Shown here piece by piece: positions 1,796 to 64,000 of a DNA stretch of 64,000 bases (the stretch's first letter is position 1; each line of letters starts with the position of its first letter). The stretch is taken from the NCBI RefSeq assembly GCF_023343835.1, contig NC_064449.1, forward strand, positions 3,819,778 through 3,883,777, read 5' to 3'. Origin of the DNA: Lagopus muta. Its lineage: Eukaryota; Chordata; Aves; Galliformes; Phasianidae. The notes below the pieces were generated by a model. It did no database searches, was not told the DNA's origin, and saw only the letters and a list, made by a program, of their open reading frames with translations. Made by a program: the position numbers and the translations under genes.

Positions 1796-2481
1796 CTGCA
1801 CAAGAAAAATAAAGCAAATCAGTACTATACAATGCATTTGGAAGGCATTTAGCTTACTATGTTTCTCTTGATGATATACACACTATTGTGTATAGTCTGT
1901 CTTGGTTATCAAAGCTTTTGAAGAAGTGAGAATTGAGGCTAGCAGTTCTAATACAAATCATTTTAAAAAAGCAAACAACTCCATCACAAACCTAATGTAA
2001 CAAATGTAGTCCTTTTTAGTAAAGACATTCCACGTGAGCAGCAGATATCCTGTATTTTTCAGATTCCTCTGATAACGAACCAGAAGCAATACAGGTTGTG
2101 TAACTCAATGCATTTGAAGTCTTGGTCCATCATAATATTTATTTGTTACATCAAAGCTGGGTACTTTATCTCCCGTATTCTAGAAACATGGCATTGAGTT
2201 GCCATTTCCATTTCTTCTTCCTTGAAGATATTTTTTGTCATAAGAAATCTACAGGAGGACAACCTATATCTCATTCTGTCCAAACAATTTGGATTGTTAA
2301 TAAACATTTTTGTAAAGTCATGAAGAGAATGACAAAGTTCAAAACTGAAAGTTGTTCAATATCCTTATATTCAAAACTTTACATATGCACTCATATTTCT
2401 GCACATCATTTTCATACTTCCAACTAAGGATCAAGACCAAATGGTATTATTAAAAAGTAATATTACAGCAAATTAAGACAG

Positions 2482-2546
2482 GGAAGTTGGACAGGATGAC
2501 CTTTAGGAGTCCCTTCCAACTCAAACAATTCTATGATTCTATGATT
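2482..2546 (+). repeat. CR1 LINE 3' tail
   Basis: The sequence reads as the CR1 3' end: a 'ggacaggatgacctttagga' block, then 'gtcccttccaactcaaacaa', then tandem ATTCTATG units (ttctatgattctatgattt). Only the last ~65 bases are present, a strong 5' truncation typical of CR1. It sits antisense inside a PRR14L intron. Confidence 0.9.
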
Positions 2547-3032
2547 TCCTCATCAACAACAAGGCATGAGAGAGGAAAAAAAAAAAAATAATTACTAGCT
2601 GTAGGCCAAGTGACAAAATCATTTGGAGCCAGAAAAATTACAGCTCATAATGAAACTAAGGATGAGTTTTACTATATTCTTCCTTTGAATTCTGGACTTG
2701 TAGTTTTCTAAAAATTAGAAAATGGATGAGTCCTATTTTTACATCTTTGTTATTACCACTGTTATGTAAGCCAGCTCTGAAGAATAAGGAAATGCAAAAC
2801 GTCTGCTACCAACAAGAGCTTCTGGTTTGGGTAAGTATTCCAGCAAAATAACTAACACACATCTTTTCTGTAAAAAGTCTTTAGGAGAGTATACAGGCTA
2901 TTGTAGAAAAGCGAAGGATGAAACTTTCATATTGTTTGAACAATGCAGAGAAATAGTTTCTACTGTAGAACAAATTCAGTGAGTCATCTTACAATTTTAA
3001 ATCAACAAAAAGGAATCTGAGAGAAAAGCAGG

Positions 3033-3058
3033 GGCACACAACACACACAACACACCAC
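3033..3058. repeat. Imperfect CA microsatellite
   Basis: The tract reads cacacaacacacacaacac, a degenerate (CA)n run just inside the PRR14L intron 3 donor side. It is a short site of little functional weight. Confidence 0.7.
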
Positions 3059-3068
3059 AAATACGCAC

Positions 3069-3126
3069 CTTTTGCGCAACAGCTAGCTGAAGAATTCACC
3101 TCATGCTTGTTTAGATGAGGATCCTC
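3069..3126 (-). CDS. PRR14L: PRR14L 58-nt coding exon
   Basis: On the minus strand an acceptor (TTTTTGTCATGTTCCAG) precedes GAG GAT CCT CAT and the exon ends GCA AAA G before donor GTGCGT. The 58 nt encode EDPHLNKHEVNSSASCCAK plus one base. It starts in phase 0, matching the exon ending at 4583. It ends in phase 1, so that G+GA makes Gly at the junction into the giant exon. Phase agreement on both sides is the main support for this small exon. Confidence 0.85.
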
Positions 3127-4582
3127 CTGGAACATGACAAAAATTGAAGTGGATATCGATCAGTTTTCTGAAACATTTCAGGGACTGCACCTGCTCACCT
3201 AGGTTAGCTCTGTCTGAGAACGACAAACCTCAGAACATGTAAGGCCTTCTACAGGCACTTGCCATTCCTTTCTGGCCCTATCAATCAACAGCAGCTCAGC
3301 ACTGAACAGTGATGCATACAGAAGACATATTTAGCATTGTAAAATGCTGTTGTATTTAGCAGCAGAAAAGTATTCCCATGCAAGCAGCTAAAATGTAGGT
3401 AGTTTAAATGGAAATTGTTGCAAATATGAATCAGAGGAATAATCCAGTCTCCAAGCCTTCCCAGGCTGTTACTGTATGCTTTTGGTAAGATGCATGTCTT
3501 TCCTGTTATGTACTAGAACTTGCCTTCTACCATTCCCTCCCTTGGCTCAAAAACCACATATATCCAGAACAAGTGACTTAGGTTTTGGAAAAAAACACAA
3601 AAAAATCCCAACCCAATCCAATAAACCGTCTCAATATTTGAAGTACATGAGAGTTCATCTTGGAAACACGACTATGGAAAAACGAATTATTTTCACAACT
3701 CTTCAAATAAATCAAACATATCAAAAAGGAAAATAGATGTATTTAAAATGACAAAATATTTTGCTATTCTGCAACATTGTAAACCATGCAACGTATCCAG
3801 ATAGGCTGGTGTATGTTCAGTCAGCATACATTTTTTTTCCCCTCCCCTGTTCTTCTATATATAAAAACCCTGTTTACAAACTTCAGAAAAATGATCAACA
3901 GGAACTAAAAAAATCTTGACGTTTTAATAAAGAGTTTTGCAACCCTTCAGTTGATGGTAAACTATTTGGCACATTTTTCAGCATGTCTTTGCCTAAAAAC
4001 ATTTTTATCATCAGCCTTTGCTACAGAGGAGGAAAAATAAACCATGACCTTGTGAGCTCCTTATTTGTAAGGGAACACTAACAGTTCACTAACTCTTGCT
4101 TTGTTACAAATTATAATTCCAAAAATGAAGAAGAATCTTCATTTTCAGATTAAAACTGAAATCCTGTAGCATTAAAATAGTTACCAGACTGAAATAGCTG
4201 TTACTTAGCAGTTAGTACTTTGACTACAAATCATAGTTGTAAAATGTGCTGTATCCACAGAACACAGATATTGGCATAAGAGCTTTCTCAGTTGTTTCTT
4301 TCTCCTTTTTAGCCACCAGTCAGCTTTAGTCTTTTCTCTGTTACATACCTGCTTTCTTACCATTCCAGTGGTACTTAAAAAAACCTTGATTTTTTTAAAA
4401 CACCACTGGTCTACTCAAATATAATCAGTTTTTCACTGGACCTATGATAATCTCTCTAAGGACACACGTGACTGAAGTCACAAATAAGTAGAAAATCACA
4501 TGGACAAAATCCTGTGTGTTGTTGTGCCAACCTTAATTTCCAAATATCACACAGATATGTTTTTTTTTCCTAATTTGCTTAC
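3127..4582 (-). other. PRR14L: PRR14L intron 2
   Basis: This is intron sequence between the start-codon exon (donor GTAAGC at 4577-4582) and the 58-nt exon. It is AT-rich and non-coding on both strands. I see no repeat element or RNA gene in it. Confidence 0.75.
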
Positions 4583-5076
4583 TTGTTTTAACCATTTTTC
4601 CCCAGGTTTTAGAGCACAGCATTCAGCGCGGCCCTCTTCAGTATCTTGTGCCTCTTTATCTCCTTGCTGGTATTCTCCACTAGAACAGTCTTGTTTCCAG
4701 CGAGTTTGTTTGTTTTCTTCATCCTTTTCAGCACCTCCATTGTGTAGTAATTCTTTGGTAAGAGGTTCTGCTGGCTCCCAATGACCCTCTCTGACCACAT
4801 CATCCACATGCGCTGCTTCCTCACCAAAGCCTTCTTCCTCCAAAGTCCTGTGGTGCTCTGATGACAGCTCACTACTGTGGGCCAGCTCAGGTGTGGACAC
4901 ATCAGGCTCTGCATCTAATCCAGCACCGGGCTCAGACACAGCCATAAGGCCAGCAGGGATGCTGAGCCCCTCGTGAAGGTCCTCAGTGCCAGTACAGGCA
5001 GAGGAGTCAAGGAGACATTCCACCCCAGATGAGAGCATGGGGGCAGCTGGAGGCCCACTGTCTTTCACAGTTTACC
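4583..5076 (-). CDS. PRR14L: PRR14L start-codon exon (CDS 4583-5038)
   Basis: The exon lies between acceptor GCTTTTATTTTTAG (5077 side) and donor CAA|GTAAGC. Translation starts at the ATG at 5036-5038, giving MLSSGVECLLDSS; MLSSGVE is how I remember human PRR14L beginning, so this start is chosen. A GTG-initiated upstream extension in the same frame is rejected because the upstream codons are leader. The 456 coding nt encode an acidic stretch rich in Glu/Asp/Ser. The exon ends in phase 0. It is preceded by 38 nt of untranslated leader. Confidence 0.88.
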
Positions 5077-6034
5077 CTAAAAATAAAAGCAACCTTAAAT
5101 CAACAAAGATAGGAGTAATCTCAGAAACGAAAGCTTTACTGTTCAAGGTTCAAAGATGCTCAGAGCTGGAGCACCCTTCCTATGGAGAAAGGCTGTTGAA
5201 GCTTGTTTAGCTTGGAGAAGAGAAGGCTCCAGGGAGACTTTACTGCAGTGCCTTTCAGTACTCGAGGGGCGCTTATAAACAGGAGGACCGACTTTTTACT
5301 CCATCTGACAGCGACAGGACAAGGGAGAACAGCTTTAAACTACGAGAGAAGATATAGGTTGGATATTAGGTGAAAATTCTTCACTCACAGGGAGGTGAGA
5401 CTCTGGAAAAGAAGAGCTGTGCGTGCCCCATCCCTGGACGTGCCTGAGGCCAAGGGCAGCCCGACCTGGGGGCAGCAGCACCCGGCAGGGCTTGGGGCTG
5501 TAAGATGCCCTCCGATCCAACACCACCACGGCTCCGTGACCCTGTAACTTCAGGGGGCTGAGAGCTATTAGGGCACCCAGGCCAAAGCTTCGTTAACAGA
5601 GACCAGCACTGCCGAGCCACGCTTCTACAGCTCCAACTGCCAGGGAACCCCGAAAGCGCCGCAGCGCACCTGGCGCTCGCAGCACGCTCTACTTCCCGGC
5701 TAACCCGAAGCGACCTTTTCCCTCCTGTCACTTTTCGAAGCTTTCAGCTGTCGCAAAGCCGCAATCCCGCGGCTCTTCCAACCCTCAGAGGCGCTCCGCC
5801 CAGAGCCCCGCACCGCGGCGGGACGTGACGCGACGCACCGCCGGCACCGGGCCGCCCCCAGCAGCGAGGGCCCGACCCGACGCTCCCGGAGCCGCGGCAG
5901 CCGCACGGCACGCTCCGGACGCGGCTTTGTTCGACGCGCGGCCCGGCGCCTCCCAGGCCTCTGCAGCCCCGCGCAGCGGGACAAGGCGGCCCCACCCGGC
6001 GAAGCACGACCACCGCCCGTCCCGCCGCCGTTAC
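5077..6034 (-). other. PRR14L: PRR14L 5'UTR intron 1 (inferred)
   Basis: This lies between the start-codon exon and a candidate donor (CCGCGG|GTAACG, minus strand) at 6034 in the CpG island. About 400 bp of it is a CR1 copy (5135-5545). The rest toward 6.0 kb is GC-rich island sequence. The first-exon donor is the weakest element of the PRR14L model. Confidence 0.5.
5135..5545 (+). repeat. CR1 LINE fragment, 5'-truncated
   Basis: Characteristic CR1 blocks are in order: 'gagctggagcacccttccta', 'ggagaagagaaggctccagg', a block derived from 'tgacagcgacaggacaaggg', 'ggttggatattaggtgaaaa', 'ggtgagactctggaaaagaa', 'tccctggacgtgcctgaggc'. The 3' tail is eroded and shows no ATTCTATG units. It lies about 500 bp from the DEPDC5 promoter, inside the first intron of PRR14L in antisense orientation. 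Confidence 0.9.
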
Positions 6035-6560
6035 CCGCGGCCGCCCCGCTCCTCGCCGCTCCACGGCCCGCTCACATCACTTCCTCATCCGGGCCCGCCG
6101 CCCCCTCCCCCGCGCGGTACGGCCGTTACGATGGCCCCGCCCCCGGCTCTCCCCTGCCCCGGAGCCCCGCCCACTCCGCCGCTCGGTGGCGGGCATCACG
6201 TGACGCGAGGGCCGGAACCCGGATGCGGAAGTGGTTCTTGGCGGCGCCGCTTCCGCCCGGTCGCTGGCGGGAGGTTAGCATCTGAGCTCGGCTCGCGCCC
6301 CTTAGCGCCGTCCCTTAGGCTTTGGCTCGCGGCGTTGAGTCGCGTTTCTCCTTCAGTCTCGGGGTTCTGGGCCGGGTGGGCTGTGAGAGTGGCGGGCGAG
6401 GCCTCAGCGCTCCTAATGTCCCGTCTGCGGCCCTGAGGAGCCCGGGAGCGGCTGACAAGAGCGGGTCGGGGGGAGCGGGCGCTGCATCCCGCTCTTCGGC
6501 ACCTGTGGGGGAAGCGTTGGTGTGGGAGCGCAGCTCTAAGGGTGGGTGTTGTGAGGAGAA
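5640..6560. promoter_or_regulatory. CpG-island bidirectional promoter, PRR14L / DEPDC5
   Basis: A dense CpG stretch separates the divergent first exons. It holds ETS-type sites in both orientations (CACTTCCT 6078-6085; GCGGAAGTG 6225-6233; CTTCCGC near 6250), a TCACGTGA palindrome at 6196-6203 and GC boxes. No convincing TATA box is visible, as is usual for housekeeping bidirectional promoters. The PRR14L first exon probably lies at about 6035-6110 on the minus strand. The DEPDC5 first exon probably ends at 6273 before GTTAGC. Exact start sites cannot be read from sequence. Confidence 0.85.
6196..6203. promoter_or_regulatory. TCACGTGA E-box (USF / MiT-TFE, CLEAR-like)
   Basis: This is a perfect 8-bp palindrome; in context ATCACGTGAC it matches the CLEAR consensus GTCACGTGAC at 9 of 10 positions. 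USF1/2 and the TFEB/TFE3 family bind this core. It lies about 25 bp upstream of the likely DEPDC5 first exon. Which factor acts here is inference. Confidence 0.6.
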
Positions 6561-6901
6561 AAGCGTGTGTTCTGGTGACGTGTCTGTAACCGATGTGGAG
6601 AGAAACTTGTCAGTGGTGGGTTTGGTTTGAAGCACGCTTCTGAAAAAGTACGCTGTGAAGGTCGTGCGCTGAAATAGCGCGTGGTGCGGGTGAGAGCAGA
6701 GGAACGGGATGTTGGCGGTGCAAAACCGTGAGGGACGGCGCTGTGTGGCTCTGGGGGGTCTGGGTGCTCCCTGCCTGCCTGCCTGCAGCGCTGGGCTTCT
6801 TCCTGACATAGAGAAGGTTAAACTTCAGTGCAGACGCTGCTGTCAGAGCCACTGAAGAACAGCTGTGCTGAGACCTGTGCTTGCTCTCGTTTCTGCTGCA
6901 G
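6220..6901 (+). other. DEPDC5: DEPDC5 untranslated exon 1 (to ~6273) and intron 1
   Basis: A donor-like GAG|GTTAGC at 6273/6274 would end a short untranslated first exon inside the CpG island. The intron then runs to acceptor TTTCTGCTGCAG at 6901. The intron keeps high GC content through about 6.56 kb and contains a (CCTG)n tract at 6770-6786. A plus-strand open frame at 6322-6630 is a by-product of GC content. The first-exon limits are uncertain. Confidence 0.5.
6770..6786. repeat. (CCTG)n tetranucleotide run
   Basis: Four adjacent CCTG/GCCT units lie in DEPDC5 intron 1, about 120 bp before exon 2. Short and probably polymorphic in length. Confidence 0.7.
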
Positions 6902-6961: not shown

Positions 6962-47766
<40,805 letters not shown>

Positions 47767-48230: not shown

Positions 48231-48744
48231 ATGTGTAAATAAGTAAAAATGCTGAAAATTGAGTGACCTGATGTTTTGTTGTAACTCCAGACAGCAATAC
48301 AGAAACAGGAAGTAAAAGAGAATGTCACCGAAGGAGGTGCTGCCACTGGTGTGCAGCATGGTCAGAGCCCAGCAGCCACAGTGGCACACAGTGGGAGCAC
48401 ACAGCCTGCTGCTGCCCTGCAGGGCCAGTATCCACCCTGCAGAGAACTCAGGAGCACTGACCACACGAAGCTGCTGATGGGAGGAAAGGAGGAATTGGAT
48501 TGTTAAGATAAGTCTGTATGCAGTGAAAGGAAGATGCCTGCATTCCAGTACACAATCACTGTCCAAGCAAATGGAAGGCAGCACACAGTGAGTGGGAGAA
48601 GTGGGTGTGGGGTGGATGCAGGACCCTGGGTGGGTGGCAGTTCCTGTTCTCTGTGCTCACTGCACTGAGGGCAGTGGAGGGCTGGCACCTTCTCACTGCT
48701 GTTCAGAGCTGATGCTGCAGTTCTATCCCTAAAGGTGATTGTCC
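48231..48744. other. Intergenic, nothing recognised
   Basis: Unique GC-moderate sequence between the DEPDC5 3' end and a CR1 copy. No open frame with family resemblance, RNA gene or repeat was seen. Confidence 0.6.
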
Positions 48745-49272
48745 CTTATGCTCTACTCAGTGCTGTGAGAACTCAGCTGGAGTGCTGTGTCCACATGTGA
48801 GGTCCTCAGCGCAGGAGAGACATGGATTGGTTGGGGTGCAGCCAGATGAGGGCCGCAAAAATGTTCCAAGGGCTGGGACACCTCCTGTGAGGACAGGCTG
48901 AGCTGGGGCTGTGCAACCTAGAGAGAAGGCTCCGGGGGAACTAAGAGCGGCCCTTTAGTATCTAAAGGGTTTTCTGTAAGAAAGAAGCAACAGACCCTTT
49001 AGTGGGGTCTGTGTGATAGGATGAGGGGAAATGGTTTACTAAAAGAGGGGAGATTCAGATTGGATATAAGGAAGAAGTTGTTTACAATGGGGGTGGTGAG
49101 GCACTGCACAGGATGCCCAGACAGATGGTGGTGCCCCATCCCTGCAGACACCCATGGTTGGGGATGGGGCTGTGAGCACTGATGGAGCTGTGGGTATCCC
49201 TGTGCACTGCAGGCAGTGGGACTAGATGTCCTCTGGGAGTCCGTTCCCCTTCAAATGATTCTATTTTTCTGT
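48745..49272 (+). repeat. CR1 LINE, longest copy in the window
   Basis: CR1 landmarks run in order: 'ctggagtgctgtgtccacat', 'gagacatggattggttgggg', 'gggctgggacacctcctgtg', 'agagagaaggctccggggga', 'gattcagattggatataagg', 'cagtgggactagatgtcctc', 'caaatgattctatttttctg'. The tail retains a single ATTCTAT unit. It lies just upstream of the homeobox-like locus. Confidence 0.92.
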
Positions 49273-49949
49273 TGTGTGATTGGAACTACTCACCTGTTAG
49301 TAGGTGGGACCTATCTAGGAAGGATGAGTTTGAGCTGTGTGCTCATTCAGTTCACATACGTGTGCTAAAGTTAACAGTGCGTGTCTGATCCCCATTAATA
49401 TCTTAAAATACTCTGCTGTAGCAGTAACTCATCATCTCTTCTACTGCAGCCTTACTCTGAAGGGATTGTGCATGCAGTCTCTTTGGCAGAACAAGTGCTG
49501 AGGTGAGGGGGAGGGAAGGGAGGGATGCTCAGAGCGTGCAGAGCCCAGGGGTCAGCAGGAGTTCACACCTGTAGGGCCGGGGGGAGAACCTTCCAGGCTG
49601 GGCAGGCAGCAGGGCAGGCAATGTAGCAGGCTGCAGGTAGTGAGGCTATGGTGGGAGGAAAGGCCAGCGTGGTGCTGCCCTGTGGGAGGTGTCCATGGGG
49701 AAATGGGGAGCAGGCCGGGTGCTGTGCTGGCTGCCTGACCTGTCCATCCTGCTGTGCTTGGGAGAAAAGCGCCCTTCTTGTCCGCTGAGTGTCTCTGTGC
49801 TTAATGTTGTAGTAGTTGGAAGCTGCAAGCAGTGGGCGTTAAGCTTCTTTTATTCTCCGTACCATAGGAACTAAAAATAGGAGAGACTTGTTTTTGTCTA
49901 ACCACAACCTTCTTCATTGCCTAGACAAGGTTTTCTGTGGGGCCTCAGC
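49273..49949 (+). other. Intergenic / possible leader of the homeobox-like locus
   Basis: GC-rich unique sequence (e.g. 49.50-49.75 kb) with no CpG island and no clear promoter motif. Nothing coding is recognised. Confidence 0.5.
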
Positions 49950-50198
49950 ATGAAGCGGTTCATGGCCACGCTGAAAAGGAACAAATCCAAGGACCTGCTG
50001 TGGAGCAGGCAGCACAGCTCTGCTGGGAGCTGCAGGGCTCACCTCCTGCTCTGGAGCAGCTGGCTGGGGCCATGGTGGACTGCAGGCAGAGGATGCATTT
50101 TCCTCACTAACGTCCATCTTGTCTGTGCTTGTGTGCTTGTCCACACCCATAAGGGCAATAGGGATGTGTTCTCCTTTGCTTCGTGGAGACAAAAATAG
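49950..50198 (+). pseudogene. ANHX: ANHX-like N-terminal segment with two frame changes
   Basis: From ATG 49950 one frame reads MKRFMATLKRNKSKD and stays open to TAG 50196-50198. The ANHX-like similarity leaves that frame near 49999 and continues in another frame as VEQAAQLCWELQGSPPALEQ and AMVDCRQRMHF. It returns to the first frame near 50100 as NVHLVCACVLV. The first switch corresponds to a net one-base loss and the second to a one-base gain. The pair leaves the frame open but scrambles about 33 residues of the SIX-like domain. No good donor was found at its end. Confidence 0.5.
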
Positions 50199-50404
50199 GG
50201 GTTTAAGTTGTTAGGGTTACAGTAAAATGCAGTGAGTGAAGTATTTCCTGCTGGTGTAGTGGAAGGCAATATGTGTGCAGTGGTTGTCCTGAAACAAAGG
50301 CCTGTTTTACTTTTTTACTTGATTGTGAATGAATCTTCTGCAGTCCATCTTGATCTTGTGCTCTGTTGTATACACGAGTCCTTATTTCTGTCTCGTGTGC
50401 ACAG

Positions 50405-50527
50405 GAATCCTCGCCTCCTTCCCTTTGTCCCACAGGTATGAAGAATAGGAAGTATTCAGGTGAAGTACACCAGCAGCTGTGCAGCTTTGCTGCAGGGATG
50501 ACAACAAAACCAAGCAAGAAACAATGG
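50405..50527 (+). CDS. ANHX: ANHX-like homeodomain, helix 1 exon
   Basis: After acceptor GTCTCGTGTGCACAG the open frame reads SPPSLCPTGMKNRKYSGEVH and then QQLCSFAAGMTTKPSKKQW up to donor TGG|GTAGGG. It matches the human ANHX text I recall (PPSLCPEGLKSRNF..EV). A further acceptor at 50435 would shorten it. Upstream, in another frame, a HRNP tetrapeptide fits the expected start of this block, which suggests one more frame break near 50410. Confidence 0.65.
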
Positions 50528-50680
50528 GTAGGGATATGCTACTTGCAGTCAGGTGCCTTTGCCACAGAAAAACTGTGTTCTGTGATAAGAGTCTATAACT
50601 GATCTCATCATACATCTGTCCTCAGAAGCCCTTGTGGAGCTGGGATTGCCCACGTTTGATCTTTCCCTAAAAGTTTCCTT

Positions 50681-50716
50681 AAAATAAATAAAAAAAAAAA
50701 AGAAAGAAAGAAAAAT
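50681..50716. repeat. A-rich / (GAAA)n tract
   Basis: AAAATAAATA then a 12-A run, then repeated GAAA units, in the intron between the two homeodomain exon segments. It looks like a simple A-rich expansion; no retroposon body is recognised upstream. Confidence 0.7.
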
Positions 50717-51217
50717 GATGCTGAGTAATTTCAGTTGCTTTGAACAAAAAGATCAAGGGAAGTTAAGTTCTTTGTTAGGCCTTTAACAGGTTTGATTTTG
50801 GACTTGAACGTAGGCAGGGAAACAACCTTCACTCACGAGGCTGTATTATGGTGATAAACAGTTCTGACTTGATTGGGCTGTAGGCTTATCCAATTGCATT
50901 TGCCTCACCAGAACATATTTTATACTGACTTATCACATTAAACTCACAAAATCTGGGGGGGAAGACTGTTGCTGTAAGCATGTATCTACCTTATCTGGAT
51001 GCAGACAAATTTGTAATGAAAGTAACCTGTGAATTATTTCAGTAACCCTTGTGTGCTACTGTCTTGCAAGGTAAAAGCTTCAGGTTCTGCAGTCTGTGGG
51101 TGCTGCTCAGTTTGTCCCATGTCCTTCTGTAAGACGGGATGGCCTGGGAAAAGGTCTGCAGCGTAGAGATGGTTTGTTTCCTATCACAAAGCAGGAGCAA
51201 CTTTCAAAATTCCATTA

Positions 51218-51262
51218 AACAAGAAACAAACAAACAAGAAACATCAACAACAACAACAAACA
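51218..51262. repeat. (CAAA)n/(CAA)n microsatellite
   Basis: The tract passes from AAACAAACAAACAAG to CAACAACAACAACAAA in the same intron. Likely length-variable. Confidence 0.75.
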
Positions 51263-51823
51263 GAATTGAGGGCATAATGAGGTTGTGCATGAAGAGATAC
51301 TAAAAGTCCTAGAAGGTCAGGATATGACAGCAACTTGTGCCTGAATTTTCAAACACTCCTCATTGATGCTATCTCATTCAGTTTATGTAGTTTAATACAG
51401 CAGACGTTTTTCTGTGAATGTGATACAGATGTTTGCTCAGGGTTAACAGGAGCTCCTTGGTGTTGTGAGTGCATTAGTGCTTGTGTCACGAGCGTTCTGT
51501 TGCTGATGTGAAGCTGTCATTCTGTGGGAAGAGCGTGCCTTGCGTGTTTAAATATAGCTGTATAAAATAACACTAAATGGCTTCCTTTAGCAAACAAATT
51601 GCCTAGGGGAGCAGGGTGAAATCTGTTTTCTGCCAACTGCTTTTGAGTTTATAAATCAATCTCCTTAATGGAATCCACACAGACTTATTGGAGACCGAGT
51701 GAACAAATGTCTCTGGTGGGTCTGAAAACTCTTCTGCCTCGCTACCTTTGGAACTGAAGGCGAAGACTTGATAGTTTTACTTGTTCTTTTTTCCCTGCTC
51801 CCTTTCTGCACCTGGGTTTGCAG

Positions 51824-51947
51824 GAGGGATTGGCTCAGGACGTGAACCTGCAGCCTGCTCAGGTCTATAACTTGTTTGCAAATTATCGACGATGTCAAAA
51901 ATCCCATCATCTTCATATGGAAAAGCTCATCAACTCGTGCCCTGCGG
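51824..51947 (+). CDS. ANHX: ANHX-like homeodomain, helix 2-3 exon
   Basis: Acceptor CACCTGGGTTTGCAG precedes GAG GGA TTG GCT. The peptide EGLAQDVNLQPAQVYNLFAN continues YRRCQKSHHLHMEK. F49, N51 and R53 of the homeodomain recognition helix are kept, but position 48 is Leu (TTG at 51872-51874) instead of Trp (TGG). The donor GCG G|GTGCTT is weak; read-through reaches a TAG 29 codons later. It joins 50405-50527 in phase 0 inside helix 2. Confidence 0.75.
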
Positions 51948-52900
51948 GTGCTTTGACCACACAAAGGAGCAGCTGGATATAGAGGTTCCTACACTCCACA
52001 AACTGCAGGTTTGTCTCTTGCTGATGGGTTTGGGTTGTGGTCCAGAAAGCTGAAAACCTCCCCTGGGAAGAGAAGGATAGAGAGGAGTTGGGTGCTGGAG
52101 GACTCTGCATCTGTGGAGTTCCTCATCCCTTGGCTATAGGCTGTCCCTTCTACAGAAGCAGCAAGTACTGACAAAGCTTGTGCAGGGAAAGGTGAACAGA
52201 GGTGCCAGAGTCAGAAGGGCACCAAATAGAAGCTAATATACGACAGACAGTAGGTTTTAGCTCTCAGCTTTGGGGTCAGGATGTGAATTTAAGAGACTGA
52301 TCAAAATGTAATCTTTGTACTCTGTGCATCTGTCACACTTTTGCTGATGTTAATGGCAAGTGATCACAACTTGCTATTTCATCTCTGGTCTCAGTGATCA
52401 CTGCTGTTATCAGCATTTTCTATCCTCTGTTGAAGAGGATGAAAGAGATGCCAGTGTTCATGTGGTGAAAAATTTGGCACCTGCTTCTTTCTACGTACAG
52501 CGGGGATCCAGTGCATCCCTACTGCAGCATCTTGCCTTCCGCCTGCCTGGCCGTTTTCACATTGCTTCTGTCTTTCTTGTAGCCTTCCCAGTGCTGGATT
52601 GGATGCAGAGTGCCTTTCAAAGGCAGCAAATACTGATGGTTTGAAGGAGCACAATAATAGTTCATAAACCTTTTCCTTAAAATGTGAAGAGGATTTTTAG
52701 AATGCAGATATGTCATTCTGAGCTCCAGTCCATTCCTGATTCCTTTAAAACCCATCCTTGTTGTGCTCCTTCACAGAGCCTTGACCAAATTTCAGTCGTG
52801 GGGGAAAATGAGGGTCTTGCTGCATTTGGCAAAATAGACCGTTGTTGGATTGCTTCTTAACTGTTCGTGTTTCTTTGCATGCCTGATTTGTACCTCTCAG

Positions 52901-52990
52901 GTGGACCTTCTGTAAGCATCAGCTCTGAGCAGATGGAGACAGCCCTCATGCCCTGTGACCCAGGGTGGGAGCAATCAGCTGCAGGCCTGG
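52901..52990 (+). CDS. Exon-like segment of the ANHX-like locus
   Basis: A strong acceptor (TTTGTACCTCTCAG) and donor (CCTGG|GTAAGT) bracket 90 nt that are open in phase 1-1: GPSVSISSEQMETALMPCDP and GWEQSAAGL. No family similarity is recognised. It fits the disordered acidic tail expected after the homeodomain. Confidence 0.5.
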
Positions 52991-53510
52991 GTAAGTCTCC
53001 TGAAGGAATGCATTTAAAGATGCTGGAATTCAGGTGATGTATGGAATCATCTTTGCAGTAACAGTTCAGAGAGGAAGCAACCCTTAAGCTTATGCATGGG
53101 ACTGTCTTGTATTCCAGTTCCCAGGGGATATCACTTAGAGAGCCTTGACTCCACAAATGGGAGCGGTCCATGCCCAGCTTCAGGAAACTGGCATGTCTAG
53201 TAGTTAACCCACCCCCTGCTGAGGACAGGTTTAGCCAGGGGATCTCCCTTTTCAGCAGAGCAGTATGTCTGACTGATTTACTGCAGCTTTACTCAGATCA
53301 GTGCACTGTGTGAAGTGAGGACAAGCCAGGCTTCGCTGACCCGTCACACTGCTGAACAACCTGTAGCTTTTGTCTCCAAGGCTGTGATGGAACCAGGAAC
53401 CCACTTCAACTCTGCCATCCTGCAGCCCAGAGAAGCAGCAAGCAGTGTTGATGCTTGCCTCCAGCTGAATAACTTTGCCCTATGCTCTTACAGGTCCTTT
53501 ACCTTCCCAG

Positions 53511-53579
53511 GTGGACATGTAACCATGTGGCAGGTCCCTTCTAGCACCACAGCCTCCATGTGGATCCCAGTAACAGAAG
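53511..53579 (+). CDS. Exon-like segment of the ANHX-like locus
   Basis: Acceptor GTCCTTTACCTTCCCAG and donor GAA G|GTCAGT bracket 69 nt in phase 1-1: GHVTMWQVPSSTTASMWIPV-TEG. An alternative upstream acceptor at 53493 would change the length by 17 nt and break phase. A longer open frame extends upstream to 53315 and could be part of a bigger exon. Confidence 0.45.
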
Positions 53580-54001
53580 GTCAGTGAAACTGCACCCAGA
53601 GTATTGCCCTGAAGGGTTTTCAATCACTCTTCAGGTGCTATCTGCTCCCCTTGCCACTTGACAGGCTCCTGGCTTTTAAAACCTCTAGGTTCATAAGACA
53701 AGTGCTAACTGAGCAGAGGCTGGATGCATAGTGCTCATCTTCAACACTTTCTCACTTCTGCTTTCTCTCTCCTTCCTATCCAGTCTTGTTCAGCTTTCTC
53801 ACCATATTTGTTCTTACTTCTTTTCTTTAGAATAGCCTTGATGGGATGTATAACACCTCCTTTTGTAGGCCTACAGACTGCTGTAGCTGCTGTTCAGGCA
53901 GCCCCTGGTGTATGTGCAGCAGGGAGAGGAAGACTAGCTTGGTCAGTGGTTGAAGTCATATTGTCTGTAATTGTGTTTAATAGTAACATTTATTTCAGCA
54001 G

Positions 54002-54147
54002 GTGTCACAGCTCCCTTGAGCAGAGTCCCTCAGGGTGTTTATATTGAGGCCAGTTCAGGAAGAATCATTCAGCAGCCAGATTTAGAGGCTGAAAGCTTTG
54101 TCCTTAGAGAAGGGCAGCTAGGACCCTGGAAGCTATTCCTCCCACAG
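54002..54147 (+). CDS. Exon-like segment of the ANHX-like locus
   Basis: The acceptor is a NAGNAG (TATTTCAGCAG|GTGTC) and the donor is CCACAG|GTAAAA. The 146 nt are open: VTAPLSRVPQGVYIEASSGR followed by IIQQPDLEAESFVLREGQLG and PWKLFLPQ. It enters in phase 1 and leaves in phase 0. Regular Pro/Glu/Leu text and clean sites make this the most gene-like of the 3' segments. Confidence 0.55.
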
Positions 54148-54669
54148 GTAAAAGAAGTGGAAAGCACAGGGCTTCTCAAAAGCATTGTCCTGATTTCCCT
54201 GTTGAAGAGAGCTGCAGAAAGTGTGGTAATGCATCTCGTTCCAGGGCCTGGCTTCCTGCTTGTCCTCATCAGATTTTGCAGATATTTTTATCTCTGCACT
54301 GAAAATGGGACATACTGTATAAGCATATGTGTGTTTTACAGTGTGGTTGGTACAAAGGAGATTCAGGGCCAGCATCATCAGAGAAGATATGTACCCCTCT
54401 CTACAGCAGGTCTGGCCTCTAAGCTACTTGCCTGGTTTTCTTTTTGACTGGAAATTGTAACTTACACAGATCTTAGTGAGAGCTGACCCTGCACACTAGG
54501 TTGGTAGGGCCTGTACTTAATCTAAAACAGTCTGTGTTTGGGATTGGCAGTTTTGAACTGTGGCTGAGGGTGATGAAAGATGAGTAAGGAACTGCTGGCA
54601 ATATTTTGGCTAGATTTAAAATTGCATGTTCTGCTTCTAGAGTTGAGCTCATGTTTATTTTTAAAATAG

Positions 54670-54786
54670 GTTCCAACACTAGAAGAAACCTATGGTGAAT
54701 GTGTCCCTGTTGGGTATGTCAGCTGTGCCAGGAATCCACACACCCTTTATCGTGTTCCTGGCAGGGACGTGACCTGCTGCTTCTAG
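54670..54786 (+). CDS. Possible terminal exon of the ANHX-like locus
   Basis: Acceptor TTATTTTTAAAATAG opens a phase-0 frame VPTLEETYGECVPVGYVSCA and on to TAG at 54784-54786. It joins the previous segment in phase. No AATAAA follows closely. Moderate to low support. Confidence 0.4.
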   Translation, partial: VPTLEETYGECVPVGYVSCARNPHTLYRVPGRDVTCCF

Positions 54787-57700
54787 TGAGGATACAGCTA
54801 TTTGGACTCCTGGTAATGCCTGTTTAGCCTGGTCCACGTGCCCCTGAACTCCCCATAATACAATGAATGCTACTGAACATCAGTCTCTTCAGAAGTGATT
54901 GAGCCTTAGGTTGCAATTTCATCCAGGCCTTTCTGCAGTCTCTCTCTAGAGAGCCTTGGGTGGGAAGCCTTGGGTGAGGCCTCTGCTCAGTGATGGGCAG
55001 TGAGCAAGAATCACCTTTGTTAGCAGGCAGGGCCCTGTTAGAAGTATGGTGTCACCCCAATTATCTTGAGCAATAATGATGAGATGAGCATATCTCATAT
55101 GGGGACTTAGGAAGGAAGAAGTCAGGAATCAGCTTAAACTGAGGTAGATGAGTGTTGTTACCCTAGAAAGACAGGGCAGAGAAACTATCCCTGCTCTGCA
55201 CATAAAAGTAAAACACAGAGAGAAAATGTTTATCCAAGGTCACCCACCTGGAGTAGACATCTAATATCACTGTTACTGCCTTGCCAGTGCCTCTCTGTCT
55301 GCTTCCTAAGTGCAGGGGTAGAGCTAGAAGTCAGCCAAAGGAACCTTAATCAGCTCGTCTCATTTTAGAAGTGCTCACCTGGAAAGGACTTGGCCTGAAA
55401 GCTTATTAGACCAATTTCGGTTTATTTCTTTTATGGTCTTTTTACAGTCAGTCCTACGCGCTTGGGCTGCATCCAAACCTCTTCTGCTCTACAGGGCTGT
55501 GAGGTGGGAGTGTGAGAGGGAGCTGGGCTGAGAGCTGACTGTCTCCATCTGCTCCTGCTGCCTGACGGGAGTTTGATCCAGCTACTGGACTGGAAGTCCC
55601 TGTGGGACAGCCAGCCTGCCTTCACAGAGAGTGCTGGTGTATCTCCTTCACTCTTCTGGTTTGGACAGGTGGAATGTAGCCCAGCTAATGCTTCATGCAG
55701 AATATAGCTCTCCTGTGCCTCACATTTCAAGCAGAAAAGCACACTGAACTCCGTGGAGTAAGACAAATTGCATTTATGATCCAGCATATTGATTTAGAAA
55801 ATACTGGTGCCAGCATGTTGATTGCAGCTTACCGCTTCTTCCTGTGCTTCTGGGATGTCAGCTCAGAGCACAGGAATCCTGCCATTAGGCCCTTCCCTCC
55901 GACAGCCCTGTGCCCATGATACTGGCAGGCAGCAAGTCTCAAATCTGCTAAAGCAGGCTACTTTTTGCTATAATTAAGCTATAGGACTTGTTGCTGAGGG
56001 TACTGCGCATGTTAAAATGTAAGCAAGCAATAAAAAAGAATGAGACAAATTGATGAGGGTAGGGGCTGAGTCCATTTGTCACTAGTAAATGTAATTGCAG
56101 CATGATGAAAATGAGCAAAATGAATGCAGCCTCCAGCAGAGCAGTCCCAAGGCTGACTGCTGAAACTTGGGAGCTTGGCAGAAACTTCTGTTAACCGACA
56201 CTTTTGGTCTGGTCTGTACAGCTGTGGTATGGGCAGCATTGTTGGAGTACGGATACCTTTGGTGATGAATGGAGAGAGCACCCTATCATGGAGCACCTTG
56301 TGTCTCCTACGTGGCCTGGTGCCTTGTGTGCTGTGACCTTTGTCCAGGTTGGATGGGGAAGCCACGTCCCCAGACTGACAGCCTTGAAAGGCTGTAGTGG
56401 AATTGCAGCTAATGTTGTGGCTGTGTTTAAAGCTACTTTTGTGTGTTTTGACTATGAAGATCTCTGTTTTCAAAATATCTTCCAAGAGAGAGACATTTGT
56501 TAGACATCTCTTTGTTTATGGAGAGTGTTCTGGGGGCATAAGGCAAGTTGCAAATGGAGATGTAGTCCTATGTACTGCTCCTGGTTAGGCTAGTCCTCCC
56601 TGTGCAGAATATGTTTTTTCAGCCTTTAACAATTTGAATAAATGACAGAAGTTTGTAGTCAACAGAACTCTCAGCAGCCCCTCTTGTCCTGCTGCAAGAC
56701 TACAATAAACGGCATAAACACAAATGCATTTGTACATCATCACATTTTCTTCCAGTTCCAGACAGACTGTGGTTGGCAGTCCTCAGTGCCCACCTGTTTC
56801 TTCAACCCTGCGTAGAAGAAAGCCAAGCCCTGGGACAGAGCCAGGTAAGAGAACACACCTAATGTTCCTAGAAGGGAGCTCAGACACACGCCATCCAGCT
56901 GTAGCACTCTCACAGGAGATGTGAAATCTCACATTGTATGTTGTGTGACTCATATAAAATCTAAGCATATCTTTGGCACCCAGCTCACTGTATTCTCACG
57001 GTAGCATCGAGCAGATGCTAGGACAGTTTTTTGTTGGTTCTGATGCATGGATTGCTTATCAGATCATGATTTTACTAAAAAATATCATAGGAACAATGGC
57101 CTGCGTAGATCCAAAGTACCATTTACATTTTGAGCAGCAGAGGATTCACCTTGCACCGTGCAAAGAAGATGACAGTAAGGTGGCTGCTTGACGGCCCTCC
57201 CCTTCTGAAAGGTTCTGCAGAATTTAACTCAGCTCTCTGAAACCTGTTCAAATCTTTCACGTCATTTTCATTTCCAAACTTGGTGTTGCTGAGGAGATTT
57301 TGCAGTGTTCTGAGATGGCCGAGAGAACTTTACAGAATAGTGGTATTATAGGAAATGATAGAAGAATTGACTTCCCTTCCATGATCTGATCTCAGTCTAT
57401 ACGCTTTCTTTTGCTTTTAAGGAGGTAGAGAATTAAACTCAGAAATTTACTGCTTTCAAGGGGATGGGAGCACATCCGTGAATGAAATGTTACTTAAAAA
57501 TAGGACCCAAGAAGGCCCTATCTAAACTGTAGAGTGAGCTGTTTGTCAACTTTATTTTCTGGCTTCAAGTGTATTTTTTTGCTTCAACCAATAAGTTAGC
57601 ATGCATTTCCATTTCTCTTGCAATGTAAGCTGCCAGAGAAAACCTTTTTGAAAGAGATTTTTGAAAAGCAGGAGACTTGTATCTGCTGGCCTCATTATGG

Positions 57701-59339
57701 GAAGTGGCTGCATTTCTGAGGGCAGTAACAGAACCTCTTTAGAGCCTTTGAAAGCATCAATATAAAGATCTGTATCTTGGAAAGTGGCCTTTTTACTGGC
57801 CATTATGGGAGCCAGATGAGAAGGAAAGCTTTGGGCATTAATAATGAATGAGCCTTTTCTAAGATTTCCCGAGTATGCAGTCTCTGTAGCTAGAGTTTTC
57901 CTCTTGCTATTTTGGATTTTTGCACTGATTTTACAGAAACATGACACTCAGTGCAATATGGGCTGGGGAACAAGATACCATGGGATGTCTGCAGATGTCA
58001 GAAGGGGACACCTCCAAGTCTTTGTAATAATTAGCCAGTTTGGGGATTCAGAAGAACAGCTTTTGCATATATTTTTTTAAAATGTGTGCTGTAGGAAAAT
58101 GAAGAGCCTGAATGGGTAAATGATTTTACAGCATTGATTGGCTTCCTGGGTGCCCTGTGTCTGTAGGATAAACTTCCCCTAGACTTGCTGTGGGGTTATG
58201 CAGATGTTTATTTCCTGTGTCTGAACCACAGAGTTGCAGATGTAGGCACCCCGTAGCACACACAACTTTCAGCTTGTTCTTTGTAGGTCATGTGAGAGTA
58301 GAACAAAAACCAGCTAACTCATTTTGGAAATGTTTCTTTCCCTTCCTGAACAGAGCTCCCTCGTCCAAGTGATCGTTCCCATCTTCATTAACTACATTAT
58401 GCTGGTTTTACCCTCCGCTGTTAACTTATTTTTATACTGAGCCGGTGCCTTGGGCAAAAAGAAGGGGATTGCTCTTCTCTGAATTAAGAACTGCACACAG
58501 ATTGCGCTTGCCATTTTTACCCCCACACCTTGTACAGGTGGATTACTCTACCTGAATTCAGAGGGGAACAAAGACTTCGTCCCTTCACACACAGTGCTCA
58601 CCACTGATGTCCCCTCCCATCCCGCAGTCCTGTGCCTCTGTACATTTGCTCAAAGCTCTTCATCAGTGAGAAACTGCACTTAAGATCCTATGTAGTGGAG
58701 CTTTGATTCCCTCCTGTCTTTCAGGTCCAGGAGGGGCTGGCTGGTGACCCATGGAGCAGTGACACGTTCCAGGCAGCATGGCTGTGCTCTGAATACTGAG
58801 CAGGGACGAATGTGCCCCGCCTGCAGAGTGGGACTGCACTTCTCCAGCAGAAACCTCATTCTTTCTTGGTTTTCTTAATACTTTAAATGAATGAGGAGCT
58901 TGATATGGAGATGAGGAACAGAAAGATTGGGGCAGAAGGATGAGGGCCTTTTCAAACAGTAAAGCTAACTAAAATGGGCTTTGTAGGTAAGAATTTTGCA
59001 AAGGATGTAAGAAAGGGAAGGTAGATTGTGGATTGTACGTTTTCACTGGAGCAGTCTGAAGCTTTTCTTTAGATGTCAAAAATACCAAGTTACTGATTCA
59101 GTGGCAGTGCCTGGTCAGGTCTCAGTCCATTATATCGTGAAGGCAGGTGAAACCCAGCTGAAAAGGAGGAAAACCTGTTATTTGCACATGGCCTTTCGGA
59201 GCCCACACCTGGGCACATGAGGCTGTGTCCCTGGTGCACCCAGTGCTCATTCCCTGGCTCTCCCTTGGGATGCCGTTTTCCCGTTGGCTGCTTTGTGCTC
59301 GCAGCCCGCCGACTGAAGGGCCATGTGTGCCTTCACACA
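54787..59339. other. Intergenic, no recognised gene
   Basis: Unique sequence with only weak candidates. An 89-nt segment at 56756-56844 has canonical sites (TTTTCTTCCAG / CCAG|GTAAGA) and is open in two frames. A segment from 56222 has an acceptor (GGTCTGTACAG) but no phase-compatible partner. Either could be a non-coding or 3' alternative exon of the locus upstream. No repeats are recognised. Confidence 0.5.
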
Positions 59340-59775
59340 GTCTCCTTTAACAGGGGGGCGCTGGGTGAACCGGCGCTGCTACGCAGGGAGGGAGAGGCGG
59401 GACGCGCTGTCCATGAGCCGCTCCGCACCCTTTTGCCGCTCTCTCTCCCGTCTCCAACGGGTCTTTCTGCCCTGAACCGCCCTGCAGGACCGCTAAGCAG
59501 AGGCGGTCCTTCCGCCGTCCAGCGCCATGGCGGCAGCGAGCCGCCTTCCTATTGGCCGTCCGACCCGCAGCGCCGGTAGCAACAGCGACAAATATATCGC
59601 CCCGCCTCCTGATTGGCTGCCGCCTCCCGCCGAGCCGTGGCAACAGCGGGGTGGGCGGGAGGGCGCGCGGCGACCGTTGGCGGGTGGGGCGGCGGAGGGT
59701 GGGTGGGCAGTTGTACCGTCCGTGCTGTTTGAACCCCGTTGGTCGGGTATTTGTGCTGTGGCGGGAAGGGTCTGA
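59340..59775. promoter_or_regulatory. Orphan CpG-island promoter
   Basis: A sharply bounded CpG-dense block holds GC boxes, two ATTGG (NF-Y) sites and two RFX-type GCAACAGCG half-sites. A plus-strand ATG in a strong context (GCGCCATGG at 59523-59531) opens an 83-codon frame, MAAASRLPIGRPTRS. That frame has no family match and is probably GC-driven. The transcript and its direction are unknown; no exon of YWHAH, the expected next gene, is visible. Confidence 0.7.
59551..59649. promoter_or_regulatory. Duplicated Y-box / X-box module (NF-Y + RFX)
   Basis: ATTGG at 59551-59555 and 59612-59616 is each followed, at exactly 28 bp start-to-start, by GCAACAGCG (59579, 59640). The first X-like site (AGCAACAG from 59578) lies 33 bp before GATTGG at 59611, which equals the X-to-Y spacing of the HLA-DRA promoter as I remember it. 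An X2 (CRE) match is weak (GCGACAA). Confidence 0.6.
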
Positions 59776-62700
59776 GCCCTGCCTGTTGTGGAAAGAGGAT
59801 AAAACAATGGGGTGGCTTTAATGCAGAAGCCACCCGTTAGCAAAATTCTCTCTGGGTCTTGATAGTCCTTTGAATGAGATACCATAAGATGCTTTATTTC
59901 TCAGAGCTCATGAGACAGCGCATCGCTGCTGTGATGTAGTTGGCAGTGCTGCACATCTGTACAGCTGAACGGAGCCTGGGCATGCCTTTCCCTGCTGCTG
60001 GAGATACGTGTTATCTGCAGCAATACCTCTGTTACAGTGAAAAGCATTTCCCTTTGCTCTCAGATGTTGGCACCGCTGCCTGCCAAAGAGATGATACAGA
60101 TCAGATGAATGTTACTACACCTGTATAGGTGTGGGCACTGTCAGCGTTTTAAGCAGTTGAAGAATGTGGTTATTATGACTGATGTAAGATGGCAGCTCCG
60201 GTCAGCAGAACTGCTGTGGAGTGCTGGGAACGAATCCTCACCAAACTGCATCTGGAAAAGGCTTTGCAGCTGAAGCAGAATCAAAGTTTTTTCTCTTGCA
60301 CTTCATTTAATGAATTTCATCTCCAGATTTGGCACAGTTGCTCTCTGGAGGGCCATTGCATTTTCTAGGTCATTTCCCAGATGAAATAACTTATTACTTC
60401 TCCATAAACTTACTTTAGGTGATTCAAAGTTTGATATGTGAAACCTAGCAAATTAGAAGTACACCTTTTTAAGAGACATGAAGTCCAGCGGCTGAAGTAC
60501 AGTATATCCCAGCCTGCCAGCAGCTCTGCTTCACACCACCTGGATGCTGAATCTGCATGAAACACATCAGAGGAGCTCATTGCATTGGAGTGAGAAGTTG
60601 CAAGCAGTGCCTGCCGGTCTCAGTGCTTCCATCAGCACACACAGGCTGGAGGCACTGCTGTGCAGCAGAGGAAGAAATCAAGTGAACCTGAACCCCAGTG
60701 GCAGCTGGCCTCCTGCCTGCGGTGCTGGGTGGAGCTGGTCTTCCATGGACAGTGCCGTGGAGTTCTGTGTGCTGTGCTCACACGTTTGAGTTGTTCCCTT
60801 TGCGTATTACCTTGTTGCTGTTTCCTAGATGTGATTTACATCCTCATTGTGATCTGCATTCCCTGTCCTGCCATATGTAGTGAGCTCTGGATGTGTTCAT
60901 GTTCTTCTTCTGTGGAGCTGTAATTAGAAATGCTCTGAGCATGTGACTGACCTTCCCTGAACTGAATGTACTGTACCTGCTGTTGTCATTCCTCCTCCTC
61001 AACATGGCGTGCCCTACCAAAGAGAGGAGCTTGTCCTAGATAGAAAACAGCTGTTTTTATCTTAAAATGCATATAAGAGCCCAAAGAACAGTATTTATGT
61101 TAACAGGTCCCAGAAAAGCGATGGAAATCTGGTTGTGTTTTCAAACTGTAGTTCCTTAGCTGCTGTAGAGGCAAGGATGCTTTCCCAATGGGCAGGCAGA
61201 CTTGTTTCCCAGCGCTGCTGCTGAGGTCAGACCAAGTGTTACCTACCAGCCTTCTTGGTTGGAAGTGTGGCATGGAAGTGGCAGCAGTGAGGTTCTGTGT
61301 GGCAGCTGCCCATGAATAGCTTCTCTGAAGTAATCCTCTACAGTACGAAAGATGATTAATGACGTGAGGTGCTGTTCTCCCTGCTTTCACGTGCCATGAC
61401 AGCTACAAGCTGGCGTTACTGAATGGGCTCACCTGAGGCCCACAGTGGACAAACATCAGGAGAGACAACTTCAAGGCCCATCTTTTCAGGAAGCTTCTTG
61501 TTCTGGGTGCTGGGCTCAACTTGCTTAGGGCCTCGTTTTCAGAAGAAATGAGCACTTACAGAAGCTTGAGTAGGGCGCCTGGAATAAGGGTCCGCTTTTG
61601 GAAATGTTGGCAAAGGTGTTTTATCTCTGTGCTTCGTTAGTCTGATCCCCAAAGTCTTTCATCCTATGTTCTGCAGTGAAAGGTCACTGTTTCAGATCAA
61701 CCATTTTCAGTGGGATTTAATCCAGTTCTGAGTAAGGCTAATCCTCTTTGGTGTAGTTTGAAGAGCAGTAAAAATTAATTTGTCAAGAAAAATCTGGGCA
61801 TATTTCTTAAATGTTTGCTGGTACTGAGTCCATAATTGGGTAGCCCTGAATGAGATGTTTTGGGGGTAGTTCCAGAAGTGCTAGACATGGAAATTCTGAC
61901 TTTATCCATAGGTTGCAAATGCTCAGCACCTCTGAAAAGCCCTGAGGTGGAGTAGGGTTGTTGGGGCTTCTTCATGAGGATGTGTGCGTGTTTGTGACCT
62001 TCAGTATTCACTTAGCATAGACGTCTTTTATACATAGAGGCTTTTAGCAATAGGATGCTCAGGTGTGAGTTCCTGATAAGCAAGCTTTTTTATTTTTTCC
62101 TATTTATGCTTGTAAATTCTGGTTGTATCCCTTTGATTACATAAAGAATGAAAACACATTCTTGTATCTGGACCAAGCATTGTGGTTTGAAGCAGCTCTT
62201 GAAGGGTTAAAGCTGCTTTCAATTAGGTGCTGTGTTCTTGCCACTGAGAGAAACCCCCACAACTGAGCATGCTTCACGGCCTCCTGTGCATATCCCTGAA
62301 TCATTCTGGCACCTAAAAACACTGCCATAATCTTTTATTCAGACATAGCACTCATTCTTCACTGGACTCCAAAATGAGCAAGTGCTCCAAAACAGCACAT
62401 TTTGCAGAGAGCTCTGAGGATCAGCTCCTGTCTGCATGGGATTTTGAACATGCAAAAGGCTGCTGTGATCCCCAGTGGGGTTGGTATACGTGTCTGCTCC
62501 CCTGAGGGAGGAAGGGCTTCACAGATGTTGTGCAAATCACTGCCCTTTTCTCTATCAATCTCCTGTTGGTGCAGATGTGCACTATGCACAGCTCACAGCG
62601 TGAGCCCTGCTGCTTTTGAGCAGCACTCCGCCGCTGCCATCTTCCTCTCTTCACTCTAGCTTTTACCTTTGAGTTACGAGGGAGGTTCTGTGAGAGTGAT

Positions 62701-63912
62701 TGAAGATTAATAAAACTTGAAATATGGCAAGTAGTAGAATATTTTCACGCACACTGTGACAGCCTAAAGAGTTCTGTTGCTTGTTAAACTCTGCTGTACG
62801 GTTTGGCCAGAAATATATCACTGAAATTACAGTCCCTTGAGGTTTGGGAAAGAATCATCACACTTCAGCTACACCCACTCCTATCTTCTGCTCTGATCTT
62901 GTCATTGGTTACAGCACCTTCCCTCCCTGATGTGCACTTATCTCACTTTGTTGTGGGGATGTGCTGCCAGGATTGTGCCCCACAGTTGCAGCATTTCCAG
63001 TATCAGATGCCCACAGACTCCCCACCTCTTTGTCTCCCCGCCCATCTCTATTTCCTGCCATGTGGTTCAGATGCTGGTTAACCTGCACTGCTCACTCCTT
63101 GCTTCTGTTCTGTTTTTCACTGCTTTGTCCCCAAGCCTGTATCACTTAGCAGCTCCCTATGTAAAACACTTCCATGCTGCAGCTCCAGGAATGAGGCAGA
63201 TGGTAGCAGGGATGTTACCTTGCCTTGGTGCTGTGAGTCTCAGGAGCAGTGCTGCAGGTGTGTGTGCTGCCAGAGCAACCAAACAGGTTGCCCAGGAGGC
63301 TGGGCAGGCTCCAGTATGCCGTGTGGCCGTTTCCCCGTTGCTTTTCCTTGTTGTCAGTGTGCCCTGTGGCTTGTGCCCTCAGCTGAACATCAGCATTGGG
63401 CTGCTCCGTGTGGCTGCCGCGCTGTCCCCAGCGCCTCACACAGCGAGCTGGCTCGGCCTTCCAGCAGGGAGCTATTTGTGGAGCAGCAGGGCTGGCCAGC
63501 ACACTTAGATGTGCCTATGGAGCAGAGCCACTGCCTGAGATCATGGGGCAATTATCAGAACCATGAGTTTCTCCATCTACAGATTCTCTCTGGGTGTGGT
63601 CACTGTGCCAGCAGCTCTAAATCCTGCCTTGTGAGCTCTGCTGGGAACGTGGAGCTCTAGGACATGAGGGCTGATGCCTGGCATCTGAACTTTAGCAGGA
63701 GGACAAGTTAGGTGCTTTGACAGCATGTTCAGCACTCCAGTAAAAGATCTGCTGACCTCTCCTTTCCTCTCTTCTCCTTTCCTTTCCCAGCTTACAATTA
63801 CTGTAGCAGATTAAGACTGCACAAGTTCTGATTTTTTTTCTCCTTGTTCCTTATGGATTCTGGGAGCTGCACTGCTGTTGTAGCTGAAGGTTGGAGCACT
63901 AGATACTGTATA
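59776..63912. other. Intergenic, nothing firmly recognised
   Basis: Unique sequence with moderate GC. Longer open frames such as 62930-63508 lack splice context and family resemblance. No repeats, tRNA or other RNA gene were seen apart from the short open frame at 60189. Confidence 0.5.
60189..60368 (+). CDS. Short open frame downstream of the orphan CpG island
   Basis: ATG in the context GTAAGATGG (60189) opens 59 codons, MAAPVSRTAVECWERILTKL then HLEKALQLKQNQSFF, to TAG at 60366-60368. The first ~33 residues look helical and coding-like; the remainder does not. I do not recognise it. It might be a first coding exon from the 59.5-kb promoter, or chance. Confidence 0.2.
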   Translation: MAAPVSRTAVECWERILTKLHLEKALQLKQNQSFFSCTSFNEFHLQIWHSCSLEGHCIF

Positions 63913-64000
63913 TGAGGGCTGCTCCAAAAGTAATGCCTTCTATTTTATCATGTTGGCCCACTGGTGGTACAGCAGTAGAAGTTGAACCTCCCCATCTCCC
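63913..64000 (+). mobile_element. Mariner DNA transposon terminus, Galluhop type (cut by window)
   Basis: Starting after a TATA context that could supply the TA target site, the text 'gagggctgctccaaaagtaa', 'tgccttctattttatcatgt', 'tggcccactggtggtacagc' reads as the terminal repeat and inner flank of the Galluhop/Mariner1 family known from galliform genomes. A short internal deletion relative to the consensus is likely after 'ttggccca'. The rest lies beyond the window. Confidence 0.8.

Follow-up and report, generated by a model that had tools for sequence, protein, structure and literature searches.

A probable unitary pseudogene of the homeobox gene ANHX next to DEPDC5 in Lagopus muta

Downstream of DEPDC5 in Lagopus muta, a homeodomain split over two exons raises the question of whether a working homeobox gene has been missed or whether a lost gene can still be read. 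A preliminary description of the window, i.e. the whole 64,000-nucleotide stretch analysed here, had proposed a live, fast-evolving homologue of ANHX (anomalous homeobox, formerly LOC647589) that was overlooked by annotation and composed of six segments. As judged from the sequence, we propose that the locus is an ANHX orthologue and very probably a unitary pseudogene decaying in place. It seems to be a case of gene loss rather than a missed working gene.

Relatives were found with a human ANHX query, for which the top match was a human entry at 95% identity. This yielded 197 proteins at E <= 0.1, and the best 120 were listed, comprising by their names 26 birds, 4 turtles and 90 mammals. The bird entries are P0094, P0096-P0102, P0104 and P0107-P0123, all but P0119 carrying the name ANHX, and the turtle entries are P0093, P0095, P0105 and P0106. 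With 26 bird proteins among the 120 matches listed, the suggestion that bird ANHX had escaped annotation did not hold. No galliform name occurs among the best 120 of the 197 matches, which is not evidence of absence because cluster members are unnamed. ANHX of Chauna torquata, a screamer and so an anseriform, is among the matches listed. In intact ANHX (two birds and human tested), both SIX1_SD and the homeodomain score above the Pfam cut-offs, with 33-55 bits for SIX1_SD.

In the window, the two homeodomain halves (50405-50527 and 51824-51947) join in phase 0 with the residues as first quoted, and their match to ANHX from birds, turtles and mammals is much closer than that to any homeodomain with a solved structure. 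In a tblastn search of 49.0-60.0 kb (E <= 0.01) with the 120 ANHX proteins, 115 of them matched the stretch with the first half and 112 the one with the second, and intact ANHX found the exons in order, all on the plus strand. Bird ANHX reached 50-60 bits per homeodomain half, compared to 19.4 bits (E 0.0096) for the best solved-structure homeodomain, two values that come from different programs; HNF1 followed at E 0.027 and MEIS near 0.35. Because these solved-structure matches are weak, the homeodomain is claimed by no standard class. Its general Pfam score in the six-segment model was 20.7 bits (cut-off 22.9), and the 83-residue homeodomain alone found no relatives as a protein-search query. 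No other homeobox class fitted better, and the similarity was not restricted to helix 3: collinear exons are present outside the homeodomain, where exons 1 and 3-7 were tested in eight stretches, each of them reached by 0/200 shuffles. Rfam, tandem-repeat and viral-contig scans gave nothing informative.

Judged by seven ordered exon remnants and by its place beside DEPDC5, the assignment to a bird ANHX orthologue appears to be right, and in this respect the preliminary description was borne out. The DEPDC5 end lies about 2.2 kb before ANHX exon 1. On the other side, a 14-3-3 gene, which we take to be YWHAH from its protein start, begins at L006:1753, i.e. window position 65,753. Thus, the relic is flanked in this bird by DEPDC5 and YWHAH, both neighbours being read from this genome. 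Introns remain between the remnants, which speaks against a processed pseudogene.

Several further elements were seen in the window. A CpG island at 59201-60000 lies just downstream of the relic; no gene was identified there, the 14-3-3 gene starting at 65.75 kb, and the island could possibly be the promoter of a non-coding RNA. At 1-5090, a minus-strand coding-looking sequence adjoins a CpG island at 5401-6800, and from the gene order it is probably PRR14L. Before the relic, 48700-49290 is presumably the end of a CR1-like retroposon, and 63910-64000 at the window edge is presumably a Galluhop-like mariner end. Literature on DEPDC5, YWHAH and chicken held nothing informative.

The anatomy of the locus was described by a frameshift- and splice-aware alignment to the consensus of five full-length bird ANHX, and where exons 6 and 7 end was taken from separate analyses rather than from that alignment. 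The relic comprises seven exon remnants on the plus strand, from 49950 to 58796. Seven frameshifts were returned by the alignment, of which one at 50330 was dropped and that near 50412 is uncertain, while five are firm in the assembly sequence. In the case of exon 1, the two frameshifts cancel and the ATG frame is still open. The missing 5' half of exon 2 corresponds to residues about 77-125, the second half of the SD domain, and 196/200 shuffles scored equally well there. A remnant of it that the aligner had placed at 50300-50404 was rejected as unsupported by shuffles. P0108 alone among the 120 tblastn queries bridges 50166-50404, in a gapped alignment of 30% identity. The exon 7 remnant corresponds to the C-terminus of isoforms from fulmar and turtles, an end that resembles that of the orangutan protein.

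Table 1. Coordinates of the window, the left neighbour and the ANHX exon remnants (window positions unless stated).
Feature	Position	Strand	Remarks
Window	bases 3819778-3883777 of contig 20		1.03-Gb assembly
DEPDC5 coding end and stop codon (left neighbour)	47461..47766	+	matched by solved-structure DEPDC5 chains; Pfam DEPDC5_CTD
ANHX exon 1 remnant	49950..50165	+	start MKRFMATLKRNK; frameshifts near 50001 and 50096; three sub-stretches, each 0/200 shuffles
Expected intron 1 and 5' half of exon 2	50166..50404	+	no remnant recognisable
ANHX exon 2, 3' part	50405..50527	+	first half of homeodomain; possible frameshift near 50412
ANHX exon 3	51824..52008	+	second half of homeodomain (YNLFANYRR) and linker; frameshifts near 51956 and 51979
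In-frame TAG	51980..51982	+	in the homeodomain frame, shortly past the homeodomain
ANHX exon 4	52901..53033	+	open; 0/200 shuffles
ANHX exon 5	53287..53579	+	open, 97 codons; 293 nt; 0/200 shuffles
ANHX exon 6 remnant	56756..56844	+	frameshift near 56812 in either annotated frame
ANHX exon 7 remnant	58725..58796	+	DTFQAAWLCSEY, stop at 58797; 0/200 shuffles

Exon 6 is read in two frames by annotated ANHX proteins, and both occur in birds and turtles: one group consists of P0118, P0111, P0113, P0115, P0110, P0095 and P0106, the other of P0098, P0093 and P0105. Only one of these frames reaches an end of the FWAAWLLFEFS type, like the mammalian end. The two frames could reflect either dual-frame coding through alternative splicing or annotation noise.

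The six segments proposed earlier could be confirmed in their coordinates, in their AG/GT internal edges and in their 669 nt (222 open codons plus a stop), but the downstream part of the model failed. Exon 3 extends to 52008, so that the donor at 51947 is wrong, as is the edge at 52990, exon 4 extending to 53033; the fourth segment (53511-53579) is just the last quarter of the exon that starts at 53287. No ANHX counterpart was found for segments 54002-54147 and 54670-54786, with 53590-56700 being matched by 0/120 proteins. Their bird-consensus scores were reached by 7/200 shuffles (borderline) and 145/200 shuffles, respectively, and better 3' exons, those at 56756-56844 and 58725-58796, lie outside the interval proposed. 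The model was therefore rejected at the edges 51947, 52990 and 53511 and in its last two segments. In a subsampled search, 47/150 random AG acceptors from the DEPDC5 region permitted a similar four-segment chain, and for this reason an open GT-AG chain to a stop is weak evidence alone.

With the protein of the six-segment model as query, three matches (P0001-P0003) were obtained. These are translations that cross exon-intron borders and were rejected as coding evidence on that account; P0001 and P0002 cover the fifth segment, P0003 exon 5. The three match parts of 53.1-54.5 kb, two of them with almost the sequence of the window and one diverging from it by about 10%. Thus, there are sequences from related birds on which the lesions could be tested.

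Important insight into constraint can be gained from the homeodomain and its N-terminal flank, where the window differs at 6 of the 35 positions that are invariant across 25 bird and 4 turtle proteins (P0108, which has no anchor motif, was left out). The six changes are E to T, R to H, V to M, R to W, W48 to L and R to C. In a leave-one-out comparison, each of the 29 birds and turtles differs at 0 or 1 of those positions. The number 48 follows homeodomain numbering, W48 being the core tryptophan. F, N and R of the helix 3 recognition core are retained in the window.

Identities to five birds showed a similar trend. In exon 1, the window shares 58-67% with them and they share 83-91% among themselves; in exon 4, the values are 57-77% and 74-100%. 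Exon 5 is loosely constrained throughout, with 54-73% among the birds and slightly lower values, 44-60%, for the window. The flattened profile across exons would fit lost constraint. For the homeodomain region, identity is 62-72% compared to 80-92% among the intact birds, and what had been called a fast-evolving gene is better read as decay. Purifying selection appears to have been lost, as judged at the protein level only. A 20-row tree was built from the window and from 19 of the 30 bird and turtle proteins listed. The window is not firmly placed in it, and its end branch was 0.49, about nine times the median of 0.055, with 0.067 for Chauna. This long branch suggests that constraint may have been lost early in this bird's lineage and predicts lesions common to its relatives.

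SIX1_SD was not detected in the window frames, in a 165-residue reading of the locus or on contig 20, and in the best window reading the homeodomain stays below the Pfam threshold with no SD match. The missing SIX1_SD argues against a functional gene but leaves the descent from ANHX untouched.

The ancestral gene would have been a SIX-type homeobox gene with an SD domain and a homeodomain, situated between DEPDC5 and YWHAH. An intact protein of the SIX-class type would be nuclear, bound to DNA via helix 3 and to partners via the SD domain. With half of the SD domain unrecognisable, the core tryptophan gone and the frame broken, the ancestral exons would yield no such protein. The live gene first proposed is hard to reconcile with the frameshifts, the premature stop, the loss of half an exon and the lost homeodomain constraint; a working product is not to be expected, and the loss is presumably old. 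Some signs count against a pseudogene: exons 4 and 5 (426 nt) lack any frameshift or stop, every internal splice edge of the remnants is GT-AG, a frame of 165 codons including the homeodomain exists, and exon 5 is also open in P0003 from the same species group. Weighed against the alternatives below, we consider these signs to count for less than the missing SD, a homeodomain that stays below the Pfam threshold and the substitutions at invariant positions.

The alternative that survives best, albeit an unlikely one, is a live shortened protein of 165 amino acids, in which half of exon 2 is skipped, translation stops at 51980 and the SD is absent. Its 165 codons are open over 49950-50165, 50405-50527 and 51824-51979 with GT-AG edges, and the helix 3 recognition core of F, N and R would be retained. 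However, exon 1 would be out of the ancestral frame for about 33 residues, the donor at 50165 is poor (GAT/gtgttc), no SD would accompany a homeodomain that is under the Pfam cut-off, and the altered 6/35 invariant positions include the core tryptophan. We give equally little credence to the idea that such a homeodomain protein, with its altered recognition helix, was kept after the loss of half of the SD as a lineage-specific germ-line regulator or as a competitor of SIX-type proteins.

Near to the preliminary description, a working full-length ANHX that only looks broken through errors in sequencing or assembly would agree with the open exons 4 and 5 and the preserved GT-AG edges. We consider it quite improbable, as a missing half exon and changed invariant residues go beyond base errors and the adjoining coding sequence of the same assembly is unbroken. 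Compared with solved chains, the DEPDC5 end has no internal stop and one single-residue in-frame gap; the 14-3-3 gene shows a 206-residue stretch without a stop, and 5/5 genomic SIX1_SD matches are in open frames.

Very little also speaks for the locus being a decayed duplicate of an ANHX that is intact at another place in the genome. Searching the genome for the SD family gave five matches, all on contigs C2 and C9, although such a search may pass over an SD that is divided between two exons; moreover, the locus has kept its introns and sits between DEPDC5 and YWHAH, not in a tandem array. A second intact copy is probably lacking. Finally, a different homeobox class (SIX, HNF1, TALE) or a chance match, to which the HNF1-like string of helix 3 might point, has practically no chance, being contradicted exon by exon by the bit scores given above and by the remaining exons, which match ANHX too.

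For a unitary pseudogene of ANHX, the published record offers some context. In the parts consulted of a 2011 survey, LOC647589 was scored absent in chicken and frog, presence being accepted on 90% identity or shared synteny (PMC3141429). As this rule demands 90%, a decayed copy fails its identity part; and because this bird is a chicken relative, the score points to loss. The same excerpts state that the class of ANHX (LOC647589) could not be placed and that the gene was datable only to before the Supraprimates/Laurasiatheria split (PMC3141429). ANHX proteins of turtles and many birds put the origin of the gene at least in the amniote ancestor. In the excerpted literature on ANHX/LOC647589 and on chicken homeobox gene loss, no bird relic was found, and such a relic would change one 'absent' to 'lost'. 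Since ANHX is proposed, in the text available, as a potential marker of spermatogonia in men (PMC9713473), it is conceivable that birds with and without ANHX could test the germ-line need for the gene. The locus also calls for caution, as a dead homeobox may get annotated as live.

ANHX is filed under the SIX class in one table of the source as excerpted (PMC5928047), and SIX1_SD is found in intact bird ANHX, whereas none was matched in the window. With bird and turtle ANHX, the locus shares the exon order, the MKRFMA start, SLCP before the homeodomain, the split of the homeodomain after residue 166 (bird protein), the exon 4-5 region and the C-terminal end; it differs in its broken frame, the unrecognisable half of the SD and the six changed invariant positions. 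LOC647589 was likewise lost in mouse and rat according to the survey excerpts (PMC3141429), again a loss that affects this homeobox gene in a particular lineage. In the case of the mouse losses described there, 7/8 occurred by deletion, with Tprx1 doubtful (PMC3141429), whereas here a readable relic is still in place.
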